64,000 nt of DNA from Ruminococcus sp. FC2018 (GTDB taxonomy: Bacteria; Bacillota; Clostridia; Oscillospirales; Ruminococcaceae), in contig NZ_JHXH01000007.1 of assembly GCF_000621805.1 (NCBI RefSeq), forward strand, positions 1 to 64,000, in the 5' to 3' direction. Below, piece by piece: positions 24,944 to 28,929 of the stretch; positions within the stretch are counted from its first letter, which is position 1, and the number at the start of each line of letters is the position of its first letter. The notes below the pieces were generated by a model that did not search any database, was not told the origin of the DNA, and saw only the letters and a program-made list of their open reading frames with translations. A program made the position numbers and the translations under genes.

Positions 24944-25705
24944 ATGAAAGAAACCGTGCTTTCAGCAAGAAAACTATGTAAATCCTTTGCCGCAAACGGA
25001 GTGCAGAACCATGTCCTTACAGGTATAGACCTTGATGTATATAAGGGGGACCTTACCGTTGTTATGGGTGCATCAGGCTCCGGCAAATCCACCCTTTTGT
25101 ATGCTCTGAGCGGAATGGACAGAGCAACTTCCGGTGAGGTCATCTACAATGACAAAGATCTTGTAAAGCTCAGCGAAAAGGAGCTTACTCTGCTTCGCCG
25201 CAAGGACTTTGGCTTTGTCTTTCAAAAAATGCACCTTGTAAGTAATATGACTTTGTTTGAAAACGTGGTGGTGCCTGCATATCTTGATAAAAGTGTACCG
25301 TCAGGGGAGACCGACAAAAAAGCAAAAGAGCTTTTTGACACCATGGGTATATCCGAAGTCAAGGATCACCTGCCCTCACAGTGTTCGGGAGGAGAGCAGC
25401 AAAGATGCGCTATTATCCGAGCTGTCATAAGTCAGCCTTCGGTGCTCTTTGCTGATGAACCCACAGGTGCTCTTAACAGGCGTAATACAATCGAAGTGCT
25501 TGACCTTCTCACAAAGCTTAACCAAAACGGACAGTCTGTTTTTATGGTCACCCATGACGTAAGAGCAGCCGTGAGAGCCACCCGCCTTATATATATCGAG
25601 GACGGCACGATAAGCGGAGAAATGACAATGCCGCCCTTTGAAGCTGAAAAGGAAAAGAGCCGTGAAACGCAGGTAAACGCATGGCTCAGCTCAATGCAGT
25701 GGTAA
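24944..25705 (+). CDS. ABC transporter ATP-binding protein (MacB/BceA-type)
   Basis: A 253-residue ATPase of the lipoprotein/antimicrobial-peptide exporter class. Walker A is MGASGSGKST, the Q-loop is FVFQKMHLVSNMT, the signature is CSGGEQQRCAI, Walker B is VLFADEPTGALN and the switch His is MVTHD. ATG 24944 follows AAAGGAAAC. It ends 13 bases before the permease gene. Two-component genes immediately upstream are the usual arrangement for peptide antibiotic sensing and detoxification modules. The exact substrate is unknown. Confidence 0.93.
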   Translation: MKETVLSARKLCKSFAANGVQNHVLTGIDLDVYKGDLTVVMGASGSGKSTLLYALSGMDRATSGEVIYNDKDLVKLSEKELTLLRRKDFGFVFQKMHLVSNMTLFENVVVPAYLDKSVPSGETDKKAKELFDTMGISEVKDHLPSQCSGGEQQRCAIIRAVISQPSVLFADEPTGALNRRNTIEVLDLLTKLNQNGQSVFMVTHDVRAAVRATRLIYIEDGTISGEMTMPPFEAEKEKSRETQVNAWLSSMQW

Positions 25706-25718
25706 GGGAGGCATAAAT

Positions 25719-28070
25719 ATGAAGTCTGTACTTTACCTTGTAAAAAACAATATAAGATTTAAGACAGGAGCATTCCGGAGCGTTATTATCCTTATGGCGA
25801 TAATCGTCTTTTCCTACTCCTGTTCGGTGAGTAATTCAAAGAACTTGAACACAGCTCTCAGTCAGTCCCTTGACCATTATGGCGTGGGCGATCTGGTAAT
25901 GACTTACAAGGGCAGCGAGATACCCACCAAAGTTATCGACGGGCTTGCTGCAAACGAAAATGTAAGCTCCTGCCGCAGCGACGATATGCTTTTTGTTGCA
26001 ATGGATTGCTATGGCGACGGCAAGGAGCTGGAGTTTGAAACAAGACTTATAAAGCAGAAAAAGGAGCTTAAAGTTTTTAAAGAAAACTCTGACGGATTTG
26101 AAAATGAACCTCCATTGCTATCTGAGGGACAGGTGTATGTGTCTTTCTGCTTCGGAAAAATGTATGGACTGGAGCGGGGAAGCAAGCTTGAGATACAGAC
26201 ATCTCCCAATACCCGTGAGAGCTTTGAAATAAAGGGCTTTGTGGAAGATCCTATCTATGGCACAAGCCTTGTGGCTTACGAGAATTTCTATATAAACGAA
26301 AATGACTGGGATCGAATTGCCGAGGGTATAAAAGAAGGCAGCGTCAATAATAACTATATCTATCCCACAAAGATGCTGCATATTTTTAAATCAGGCGATA
26401 TCAAGGATTTTGAGCTTGTAAAGCAGCTCAATGACCAATGCGGACTTGTTGACGAGTCAATGCTTTATGTTACCCGCAGTGAGCTTGTGAGCTATACCGA
26501 GATATACGCCGATGTGGGCACCAGCCTGCTGTATGCCTTTGTGGGACTGCTTGCGGTCGTGGTTGGACTTATGATGCTCAACAGTATAAATTCCACAGTG
26601 GAAATGCAGTATGTAGATCTTGGCATTTTAAAGTCACAGGGGTTCACCGTGTGGCAGATAAGACTTTCTTATATTGTACAGTACGTGTTTGCCCTCATCT
26701 GCGGAACGGTCATAGGTCTGTTGGTTTCTGTGCCGATGCTTTCGGTAATGGGCAAGCTATTTATGACCGTGACCGGAATATGGACCGATTGTTCCATAGA
26801 CTTTTTAAGCAACAGCATAATAGCCATTGCGATGATAGCGGTATTTGTGCTTTTTATACTTTTCTCAACACGCAAATTAAAGAAAATATCCCCTGTAAAT
26901 GCCCTTAATAATGCTCATAAGGACGTCCACTTCACAGGCAGACTTAGTATGCCCATGAAGCAAAGATCCCTGCCTGTGTCCATGTCAATGCGTGCGCTCA
27001 CATCAGGACTCCGCCATTATATATTTGTCTTTCTGATAACCGTTCTGCTGATGTTCTTTATGGTCACTATCTTTAATCTAACCAATGGCATAAATTTTGA
27101 AGAAATGTTCGGATACAACTGGTCAAATGTCTCCGCCAAGCTGTTCAACGAGTTTGAACAGAGTGATATGGAGCTTGTCCGTGATAAGATCAAACAGATC
27201 GACCCCAAGGCAGAGGCTGACTTTGTTGCTTACACCGATAATATCCTTGCAGATGACGTGCTTTACGGCTCAACTGCTACGGATAACCTTGAAAGATATT
27301 ATAAACCCATAAAGGGAAAGCTTGCCGAGTACGACAACGAGGTGATAATTACGAAAATTGTTGCCGACGAGCTTGAAAAGGGGATAGGCGACAGTATCAC
27401 AGTTTCCAATTCGGGAAACAAGGCAGACTATACCATAGTGGGTATCGTCCAGACCACAGCCCAGTCCGGAAGACTTTTCTGCACCACATTGGACGGTGCA
27501 AAGCGAATAGGGATCAAGCCTTATCTGACAAATATCTATCTTGATGATAAGAGTAAGGACGAAGAAGTAGTAAAAGCCCTTAATGAACAAATGGGCGACA
27601 GGCTCTTTGCCAAAGCGGCAAACAAAACATCTATATATGAGACCACAGAGGACTTGGTAAATATGTTCCTTGTGCTGATCGTGGTGATCGTTGTGGGAGT
27701 TTCGGCAATATTCCTGCTGGTAGCAGTAAGCCTTATCTGCAAAGTTACCTTCCTGCGTGAGCGCACCGATATAGGCATCTTCAAAGCCACAGGCTTTACA
27801 ACAGGAAATCTGCGGGCACAGTTTTCTGTGAGATTTCTGATGATCGGGGTGCTTGGCTGTATCGTCGGAACAGTGATCGCTGTGTTTGCCACAAATCCAC
27901 TGCTGTCAATGCTTATGAAGATCGTGGGAATGACTGATTTTATGCACTCGCTTACAGTTTTTGAGGTGATTATCCCTGCCGCAGTAATATGCCTTTGCTT
28001 TGCAGGCTTTTCTTATATGTCCTCAAGGCGCATCAGGACTGTACAGACCACTGAGCTTATATGTGAGTAA
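25719..28070 (+). CDS. ABC transporter permease with two FtsX domains
   Basis: A 783-residue membrane permease partner of the preceding ATPase. It has an N-terminal helix (about 18-38), a large outside domain (about 45-255), three helices (about 260-390, GTSLLYAFVGLLAVVVGLMMLNSI), another helix near 430, a second outside domain (about 455-640), and a last group of three helices (LVLIVVIVVGVSAIFLLVAVSLI onward). This is the two-repeat FtsX layout with about eight helices rather than the ten of BceB. ATG 25719 follows GGGAGG. Its intrinsic terminator is split by an IS4-like insertion. Confidence 0.88.
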   Translation: MKSVLYLVKNNIRFKTGAFRSVIILMAIIVFSYSCSVSNSKNLNTALSQSLDHYGVGDLVMTYKGSEIPTKVIDGLAANENVSSCRSDDMLFVAMDCYGDGKELEFETRLIKQKKELKVFKENSDGFENEPPLLSEGQVYVSFCFGKMYGLERGSKLEIQTSPNTRESFEIKGFVEDPIYGTSLVAYENFYINENDWDRIAEGIKEGSVNNNYIYPTKMLHIFKSGDIKDFELVKQLNDQCGLVDESMLYVTRSELVSYTEIYADVGTSLLYAFVGLLAVVVGLMMLNSINSTVEMQYVDLGILKSQGFTVWQIRLSYIVQYVFALICGTVIGLLVSVPMLSVMGKLFMTVTGIWTDCSIDFLSNSIIAIAMIAVFVLFILFSTRKLKKISPVNALNNAHKDVHFTGRLSMPMKQRSLPVSMSMRALTSGLRHYIFVFLITVLLMFFMVTIFNLTNGINFEEMFGYNWSNVSAKLFNEFEQSDMELVRDKIKQIDPKAEADFVAYTDNILADDVLYGSTATDNLERYYKPIKGKLAEYDNEVIITKIVADELEKGIGDSITVSNSGNKADYTIVGIVQTTAQSGRLFCTTLDGAKRIGIKPYLTNIYLDDKSKDEEVVKALNEQMGDRLFAKAANKTSIYETTEDLVNMFLVLIVVIVVGVSAIFLLVAVSLICKVTFLRERTDIGIFKATGFTTGNLRAQFSVRFLMIGVLGCIVGTVIAVFATNPLLSMLMKIVGMTDFMHSLTVFEVIIPAAVICLCFAGFSYMSSRRIRTVQTTELICE

Positions 28071-28085
28071 ACTAAAAAAGAGTAC

Positions 28086-28096
28086 CTTTAAACAGG
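28086..28096. repeat. Target site duplication, left copy
   Basis: CTTTAAACAGG, identical to 28888-28898. The central nine bases are the loop of the ancestral terminator. Confidence 0.85.
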
Positions 28097-28115
28097 CAAT
28101 ATCATTAAGCTAACG

Positions 28116-28152
28116 AAGAGTTCACATCAAAAAGATGTGGGCTCTTTTTTTT
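28116..28152 (+). terminator. Terminator-like hairpin inside the left end of the IS4-like element
   Basis: A 13-base stem (28116-28128 with 28134-28146, two G-U pairs) followed by eight T. It would stop transcription entering from the ABC operon and so replaces the terminator that the insertion broke. Confidence 0.75.
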
Positions 28153-28242
28153 ACCGTGAGTATTAAATAACTGTAAACTTTAGCTGCAATGGCTTGACAA
28201 AATTGCGATTTTGTGCGGTTTCATTGCCTATGGCAATGAAAC

Positions 28243-28280
28243 CCTTTGAAATAGGTATAGTAGTTTTACCATTTCAAAGG
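28243..28280 (+). promoter_or_regulatory. Hairpin covering the transposase ribosome binding site
   Basis: CCTTTGAAAT (28243-28252) pairs with ATTTCAAAGG (28271-28280), extended by GGTA/TACC. The 3' arm contains AAAGG of the AAAGGAGG ribosome binding site (28276-28283), so the site would be hidden in transcripts that include the 5' arm. Confidence 0.6.
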
Positions 28281-28291
28281 AGGACTCAAGT

Positions 28292-28735
28292 ATGAAATTT
28301 GCAGGCAGATTGAGAAAAAAACTGAATGGTTCCATCAATCGCATTTGTACCAAGCACAGCAGCTTCTTTGTATCACCCGATAAAGACTTTACTCGCAAAG
28401 GCAAATTTAAACCTCAGGATATTTTTATGTCTTTGTTGTCTATGGAAGGTTCATCTTTGTCTCACGAACTTCTGAACTATTTCCAATTTAGCTCAGCGAC
28501 ACCTTCTAATTCTGCTTTTGTTCAGGCTCGCAGCAAGATATCTCCCTCTGCCTTCGAAGATTTGTTTTATGATTTTTCTAATAATGCCTGCGGTAAAGAG
28601 CTTTCCTTTTGCGAAGAATACCTCCGTCTAATGTTGAAGTACTTATTGCAGCTCACATCCTGCCGATCCGACCCGGCGGGAGCAATCCTCGTGCCCCTTC
28701 ACGAAAGCACGCTGCATACTTCATTTACAGGGTAG
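28292..28735 (+). pseudogene. Truncated IS4-family transposase
   Basis: A 147-codon frame. Residues 1-115 match the N-terminal part of IS4-type transposases: KDFTRKGKFKPQDIFMSLLSMEG, SLSHELLNYF, and TPSNSAFVQARSKISPSAFEDLFYDF. After about residue 115 (LMLKYLLQ) the similarity stops and the frame ends in unrelated residues. The catalytic DDE domain is missing, so the product cannot transpose. A full-length family member would be about 400 residues. ATG 28292 has a perfect AAAGGAGG, but it lies within a hairpin. Confidence 0.8.
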
Positions 28736-28818
28736 CATAATCCCATCAATTTTGTCAAGTCATTTTGGGCAGTCGATTACTTCTTCGACGGCTTTCTTTG
28801 ATATGCCTACTTTAAAAT

Positions 28819-28862
28819 AATGCAGTCATTGGCTGTTTTTGTTTGCCAATGACTGCATTTGT
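28819..28862. terminator. Hairpin near the right end of the IS4-like element
   Basis: Perfect 15-base stem AATGCAGTCATTGGC / GCCAATGACTGCATT with an 11-base loop. T-rich sequence follows on the plus strand; probably the transposase terminator. Confidence 0.65.
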
Positions 28863-28887
28863 TTGATTCCTTAGCTTAATGATATTG

Positions 28888-28898
28888 CTTTAAACAGG
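28888..28898. repeat. Target site duplication, right copy
   Basis: CTTTAAACAGG, identical to 28086-28096. Confidence 0.85.
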
Positions 28899-28929
28899 GT
28901 ACTCTTTTTTTGGGGGGAAAACCAATATC

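Follow-up and report, generated by a model that had tools for sequence, protein, structure and literature searches.

An IS4-family relic in the loop of a transcription terminator of Ruminococcus sp. FC2018 and the likely preference of its relatives for terminator-like sites

Among the insertion sequences (IS) known for hairpin or palindrome targeting, IS1272/TnSha1 belongs to the IS1182 family, and IS231A has the palindromic target GGG-N5-CCC. IS1272/TnSha1 targets hairpins, several of which are confirmed transcription terminators, with little base specificity; it cuts blunt in the stem and deletes part of the hairpin, and no duplication is formed (PMC4923244). IS231A represents another subgroup, with CAT ends, and terminators are not mentioned for it in the accessible portion of PMC2266710. 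ISRm22, which belongs to the IS4 family (IS4Sa subgroup), was found in repetitive extragenic palindromes (REP) in 10 of 10 cases in the table of its report and in nine in the text (PMC1525189). Here, we analyze an IS4-family relic found in a stretch of 64,000 nucleotides from Ruminococcus sp. FC2018 (contig NZ_JHXH01000007.1, positions 1 to 64,000), below called the window. The relic interrupts the terminator of an operon for an ABC transporter. Unlike in hairpin replacement of the IS1272 type, it is flanked by an 11-bp duplication, and both 13-base arms of the terminator are intact. Whereas the REP targets of ISRm22 represent one repeated sequence, the targets of the window family are alike in form and not in sequence. 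We consider it likely that a branch of the IS4-family transposases prefers terminator-like sites, composed of an A-tract, an inverted repeat, and a T-tract, and that the relic was inserted at the dyad of such a terminator.

An earlier note on this DNA, made from the sequence alone, had stated that hairpin landing sites are less known for IS4-type elements. This stands for terminators, whose targeting by IS4-type elements was not found described in the accessible part of the open-licence literature, but only in part for palindromes, as the ISRm22 case in REP elements is in print. Terminator targeting with the arms kept and the loop duplicated is a variant on the known hairpin or palindrome targeting. 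Papers on a miniature inverted-repeat transposable element (MITE) of P. gingivalis and on pneumococcal repeats reportedly mention rho-independent terminators. Like bacterial MITEs and mobile insertion cassettes, the window family includes short transposase-free copies that share its ends, along with a single 1149-bp copy carrying a foreign gene; the difference is that terminator-centred insertion is a common rule in the window family.

The placement of the element in the loop of the terminator, as proposed in the earlier note, is exact by both direct reading and repeat search (coordinates in Table 1). Only three bases separate the permease stop from the 5' arm AAAAAAGAGTACC (direct reading). 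Removal of the element together with one copy of the 11-base duplication rebuilds a 13-base stem with a 9-base loop, followed by a run of 7 T. The RNA of the rebuilt site folds with -18.1 kcal/mol (z -4.6), none of 200 shuffles being as good, and the computed fold forms extra pairs within the 9-base loop. The duplication comprises this loop and one base of each 13-base arm, and its offset from the dyad is 0.0. With its G+C stem, its T-run, and its position directly 3' of the permease gene, the target has the form of a predicted intrinsic terminator. The 17-base terminal repeats are perfect inverted ends, for which 0.05 matches (mean, with up to 2 mismatches) are expected by chance in the window.

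Nearly all relatives were gathered by the terminal-repeat sequence, i.e., by ends and duplication and not by target. Matching ends were found in 5 of the 29 genus genomes (G003, G006, and G014 have a single mismatched end), in 18 of 396 family genomes, in 9 of 16 genomes of one MITE-rich genus, and in 17 of 394 order genomes, where 7 of the 37 matches were left out. A strict rule was applied, demanding a duplication of 10-12 bp with no more than one mismatch and one end with no more than one mismatch; repeats were removed, and the tandem copies in genome G219 were treated as units. The resulting strict set contains 24 insertions from 14 genomes. One of these sites (L046), unlike the others, came from a transposase search; the transposase scan of genome contigs yielded 4 relatives among 80 candidate stretches. 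The strict-set short copies with the same ends and without a transposase gene are 111-261 bp long, and the 111-bp copy contains N.

Sites were counted as hairpins if a gapless stem scored at least 8 and its dyad lay no more than 2.5 nt from the centre of the duplication, and as terminator-like if they additionally had at least 3 G-C pairs and either TTTT after or AAAA before. The controls were 5000 coding positions and 5000 intergenic ones, the latter drawn from a pool of 10208 in the strict-set loci and six further loci. A centred hairpin was found at 17 of the 24 strict sites, compared with 6.92% of intergenic and 4.68% of coding positions (binomial p 4e-15 vs intergenic). Terminator-like sites accounted for 14 of the 24, compared with 2.30 and 0.58%, respectively (binomial p 2e-17 vs intergenic), and in 12 of these 14, AAAA before is combined with TTTT after. 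The MITE-rich genus has hairpins at 11 and terminators at 9 of its 14 sites; for the remaining ten sites, the numbers are 6 and 5. Best dyads of the strict set scatter up to 2.5 nt. Three sites (L058, L076, and L110) have a hairpin and failed the terminator rule. A single further copy was found in the FC2018 genome (copy 2); its 10-bp duplication is perfect and lies at the centre of the terminator AATAAGAGCATCC-AAAGGC-GGGTGCTCTTTTTT. Thus, the survey suggested in the earlier note, in which copies of the terminal repeat are collected and their empty sites inspected for T-tailed hairpins, came out in its favor for both genomic copies and for most of the strict set.

The strict set excludes copies that have a single end or a decayed duplication, as well as the full-length copy of Ruminococcus bicirculans, whose right end is not in place. 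Single ends numbered 82 before the order-level search, some of them being chance matches or repeats. A loose pairing of ends (49 pairs) was dropped, since chance partners got accepted; an earlier strict count was 13/20. No DNA relative was found in the plasmid and phage collections. Five viral contigs, three of them sharing flanks, contain the 17-base end, and no element adjoins these matches.

Insertions of the archetype, E. coli IS4, were searched for with its left end, which matched 2542 of 5426 E. coli genomes. Out of 60 records listed, 25 regions were chosen by hand and taken at full length, giving ten distinct usable sites. L194/L216, L202, L208, and L218 were left out, having no right end or no duplication; L203 and L214 represent the same adhE place and were counted once, and the bamD site was added from a separate reading. 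IS4 was found in the gene-end terminators of eno, adhE, and bamD, with centred 12-13-bp duplications. The L210 site is a strong palindrome; its near flank recurs at L215, next to glcA. Sites other than gene-end terminators are nanX (K-12), ycgL-ycgM, ydcO, yicI, ygeA, and a DUF554 gene; several of them have A..T tracts. The L209 site passes the terminator rule, yet it lies inside the ygeA coding region and was not counted as a terminator. An older report is said to place IS4 in the pheST attenuator. E. coli IS4 resembles the window family in its end TAATGCCGATCAGTTAAGG, which aligns with CAATGTCATTAAGTTAA of the relatives, in a shared Y-2-R-3-E-6-K motif, and in duplications of 11-13 bp. It differs in its transposase, which is 21-22% identical to that of R. 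bicirculans, in the smaller share of terminators among the examined sites, and in duplications of mostly 12, not 10-11 bp. From this small and chosen sample we claim a resemblance and no rate.

Orthologous operons without the element were also compared. A permease homolog was found in 17 of the 29 genus genomes, FC2018 included, and seven of the others are 60-85% identical. Six element-free orthologs have readable permease stops. By eye, a terminator follows soon after the stop in four of them (L222, L224, L225, and L226), and in L226 it is followed by the same tRNA-His sequence as in the window; no terminator was seen by eye after the permease stop of L221. In the window, convergent tRNA genes (His, Arg, Gly) with a terminator-like site of their own lie beyond the ABC-operon terminator. 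These orthologs support a terminator older than the insertion; they do not give the exact empty site. The expected agreement with uninterrupted relatives was thus found in four of six orthologous operons, but not in L221 or in the closest ortholog, L220. For the copy 2 site, nothing informative came from orthologs of the adjacent gene.

The U-tailed hairpin that the earlier note had ascribed to the element itself was found at 28115-28147, with its T-tail reaching 28152 (-19.1 kcal/mol, z -6.2). A hairpin just inside the left end is present in four copies: in the window copy (-19.1 kcal/mol), in copy 2 (-22.4), in R. bicirculans (-22.7), and in genome G202 (-24.4). One change in the copy 2 hairpin improves pairing. 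When three whole interrupted sites were folded, the terminator arms paired across the element, the duplications formed an internal loop, and the inverted ends were stacked inside. It is the inverted-repeat nature of the element ends that still lets the RNA of an interrupted site fold in this way. In vivo, the polymerase has probably passed before 800 nt of element can fold, and for the window copy we therefore put more trust in the internal hairpin; for the 160-bp copies, the folds make a joined stem across the element plausible. Termination of the host operon is probably kept, because the ends can refold and the element has its own T-tailed hairpin. With such a terminator and with arms able to pair across the element, the near-neutrality of the insertion is plausible.

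The contributions of the stem and of its flanking tracts to the target can be partly separated. For 18 sites with 10-bp duplications, pooled with their reverse complements, the base profile has A at 64-81% at the 8th-12th base outside the duplication; the matching T on the other side follows from the pooling. Inside the duplication there is little base preference (at most 0.25 bit per position). Hairpin sites contain a mean of 11.2 tract bases (of 18), compared with 5.6 in the control. The no-hairpin sites (n=7) also exceed the control (8.7 vs 5.6, p 0.0015; weaker side 3.1 vs 1.9, p 0.015), as do the E. coli IS4 sites, coding ones included (7.5 vs 3.8 of 14 tract bases, p 7e-7, n=11 with adhE entering twice). 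The A-tracts before and the T-tracts after the duplication belong to the target signal. Because they do, targeting of a hairpin loop may mean recognition of a symmetric duplex, not of an extruded hairpin. The tracts might even be all that is read, if an A- and a T-tract in symmetric arrangement, about 29 bp apart centre to centre, were recognized as bent or narrow-groove DNA, the stem went unread, and terminators were the commonest match. The A signal outside the duplication is indeed the strongest base signal, and the excess at hairpin-free and E. coli sites fits such a reading. We nevertheless find it rather unlikely. An inner stem score of at least 6 was found at 13 of 17 two-tract sites, compared with 14.2% of 1057 roughly tract-matched intergenic positions, and at the laxer score of 4.5 the values are 14 of 17 and 39.1%. 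Tracts are lacking from the L076 site, which is nonetheless strongly palindromic; its element, however, contains N. With arms exchanged between sites, stem scores averaged 6.1 (sd 0.5), compared with 10.8 for the observed pairs (n=21, sites with diverged ends excluded). The tracts alone do not seem to explain the targeting. Recognition of structure, i.e., of an extruded cruciform or of hairpin DNA exposed by transcription and nicked at the loop-stem junction, is equally doubtful. It would agree with the low information content inside the duplication and with the duplications of the window copy and copy 2, which comprise the loop and one or two bases per arm, but a pure cruciform model does not predict the tract signal outside the stem.

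Two further explanations need no target preference. Insertion could be random, with copies seen in terminators since they are least harmful there; terminators are tolerant, and the inverted ends and the hairpin of the element probably keep termination, as the folds indicate. Yet other intergenic DNA should be just as tolerant and is far larger, only 2.3% of it being terminator-like, and selection leaves unexplained the centring within 2.5 nt of the dyad, which makes survivorship alone improbable. Coincidence, i.e., two chance inverted repeats in the genome, might appeal to the same 2.3% of intergenic positions, but it is refuted by the site counts (2 of 2 genomic copies and 14 of 24 overall) and can hardly be entertained. 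Several observations weigh against the preference for terminator-like sites itself. No centred hairpin was found at seven of the 24 strict sites (L046, L028, L029, L079, L134, L158, and L178), the first three of which have diverged ends (CAACACC / CAATCCC). Two of the 17 hairpins are soft, as the L076 element contains 10 N and L110 has a long, weak, A/T-rich, imperfect stem; without both, the count is 15/22. One genus of MITE-rich genomes provides 14 of the 24 strict sites. Pairing at zero offset (15 positions per side, n=18) is in weak excess, 323 of 5000 swaps being as good, and the tract matching is inexact, with an average of 12.0 tract bases at insertion sites and 10.1 in matched controls. 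Covariation in the internal hairpin is within shuffles (3 pairs changed on both sides in 4 sequences, 69/500 as high). Clear gene-end terminators were found at only three of the ten distinct E. coli sites, and the K-12 nanX site has no hairpin. The closest permease ortholog, L220 (85%), has no clean terminator in the corresponding place, only a stretch resembling the 5' arm. Hairpin-loop targeting, as the earlier note had it, is therefore upheld as an enrichment (17/24) but not for the seven sites without a centred hairpin, three of them with diverged ends.

Under the favored reading, the branch with the terminal repeat CAATRTCATTAAGYTAA and near variants of it would prefer inverted repeats rich in G+C that are preceded by an A-tract and followed by a T-tract. 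Its transposase, probably acting as a symmetric dimer, would capture such two-fold symmetric sites and make its cuts on either side of the dyad, 10-11 bp from each other, so that the loop would be duplicated and both arms would survive beside the element. The RNA of the interrupted site would still fold, the element ends being stacked within the stem of the terminator, and a second T-tailed hairpin would stand just inside the left end; the cost to the host is probably low. In a wider version, a branch of the IS4 subgroup, IS4 included, would be guided to terminators at any place in a genome by their symmetric shape (perhaps a cruciform) and open the loop, and its ends would re-close the hairpin, placing the element and any cargo in gene-end safe harbours with termination unbroken. 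This version is tentative, and we lean slightly against it. If the preference is real, it would explain the low-cost spread of such elements and of their short non-autonomous copies, insertion maps could serve to read terminators, and the site choice of IS4, a long-known insertion sequence, would have a testable answer. The data suggest that the window family uses gene-end signals as safe places to land.

The 147-aa frame of the relic is 54% identical to a transposase of R. bicirculans 80/3 over about 100 aa. That transposase scores 165.6 bits with NF033592 IS4 (cut-off 115) and matches DDE_Tnp_1 with E 5e-24; the fragment in the window has 20.8 bits to NF033592, under the cut-off because it is truncated, and matches no Pfam model. 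Similarity between the window copy and the R. bicirculans element covers positions 1-440 and 506-645, segments that lie about 900 bases further apart in R. bicirculans; the window copy has therefore lost the stretch for the catalytic residues. The Y-(2)-R-(3)-E-(6)-K signature YSMRWGIETSFRDLK of the R. bicirculans transposase, which aligns with E. coli IS4, is deleted in the window copy. The end consensus of the IS4 subgroup is -AATR--------WTW---- (Table 1 of PMC2266710). The end CAATGTCATTAAGTTAA of the relatives matches it at 7 of 7 positions, and CAATATCATTAAGCTAA of the window at 6 of 7, with C at position 14. Relatives with a complete transposase and both ends have lengths of 1615 bp (G219) and 1642 bp (L046), inside the 1400-1650 bp of the IS4 subgroup. 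As in the IS4 family, there is a single reading frame, and the duplications are about one helix turn long (11 bp for the window copy, 10 bp for copy 2, and 10-11 bp in the strict set), an agreement partly built in, as the strict rule itself demanded 10-12 bp.

Table 1. Coordinates of the relic, its insertion site, and the adjoining transporter genes in the window.
Feature	Position	Strand	Remark
IS4-family deletion relic, 791 bp	28097..28887	+	
Left terminal inverted repeat CAATATCATTAAGCTAA, 17 bp	28097..28113	+	
Right terminal inverted repeat, 17 bp	28871..28887	-	
5' arm of the ABC-operon terminator with A-tract, AAAAAAGAGTACC	28074..28086	+	pairs with 28898-28910
Left copy of the 11-bp target duplication CTTTAAACAGG	28086..28096	+	loop and one base per arm
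Right copy of the 11-bp target duplication CTTTAAACAGG	28888..28898	+	
3' arm of the ABC-operon terminator with T-run, GGTACTCTTTTTT	28898..28910	+	
T-tailed, terminator-like hairpin of the element	28115..28152	+	
Subterminal inverted repeat arm	28188..28205	+	contains TTGACA; partner 28747-28764; near copy 2 deletion edges
147-aa reading frame, N-terminal transposase fragment	28292..28735	+	catalytic part deleted
FtsX-like ABC permease	25719..28070	+	terminator hit by the element
ABC ATPase	24944-25705		partner of the FtsX-like permease, two-gene transporter

The FC2018 genome (2.40 Mb, 32 contigs, 99.6% complete) contains no complete transposase of this kind at E 1e-20, the sole match being the fragment itself. 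The 251-bp copy 2 corresponds to positions 1-118 and 653-791 of the window copy, with 97 and 99% identity over the two segments. Both genomic copies are non-autonomous relics. Copy 2 is without about everything between the subterminal inverted repeats, which surround CTTGACAAAA and occur in L046 too. The R. bicirculans relative (L014, 1044-2571) has a whole transposase frame, but with a TGA soon after the expected start, and its right end was not found in place; this relative is probably dead as well.

Some relatives have an unusual organization. In G219, contig C2, L028 and L029 are tandem pairs of a full-length relative, with one 10-bp spacer, TCTTATGAAA, between the paired copies. In L028, the spacer differs from the outer duplication GATTATCACG, and the pair therefore seems to have moved as one unit. 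L096 (G560:C48, 1260-2781) comprises 1522 bp between two such ends, with a 402-aa frame that has no Pfam match at E 0.01; its outer flanks ACCGGCATCC and GGGGATGCCGTTTTTT are terminator arms, and no duplication was found. The short copy L130 (G580:C181, 1355-1517) has duplications that differ by 6 mismatches, and its terminator arms still pair in a 16-position stem, as if the arms, and not the loop copies, had been retained by selection. L103 (G548:C204, 2933-4081), 1149 bp long, shares the ends of the family and lies in a terminator, where it is flanked by a perfect 10-bp duplication. In place of the transposase it holds a 347-aa HipA_C-like gene (29.7 bits, Pfam cut-off 30.5), and the gene 5' of it reads like an ABC exporter. 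L103 is a putative mobile cassette housed in a terminator.
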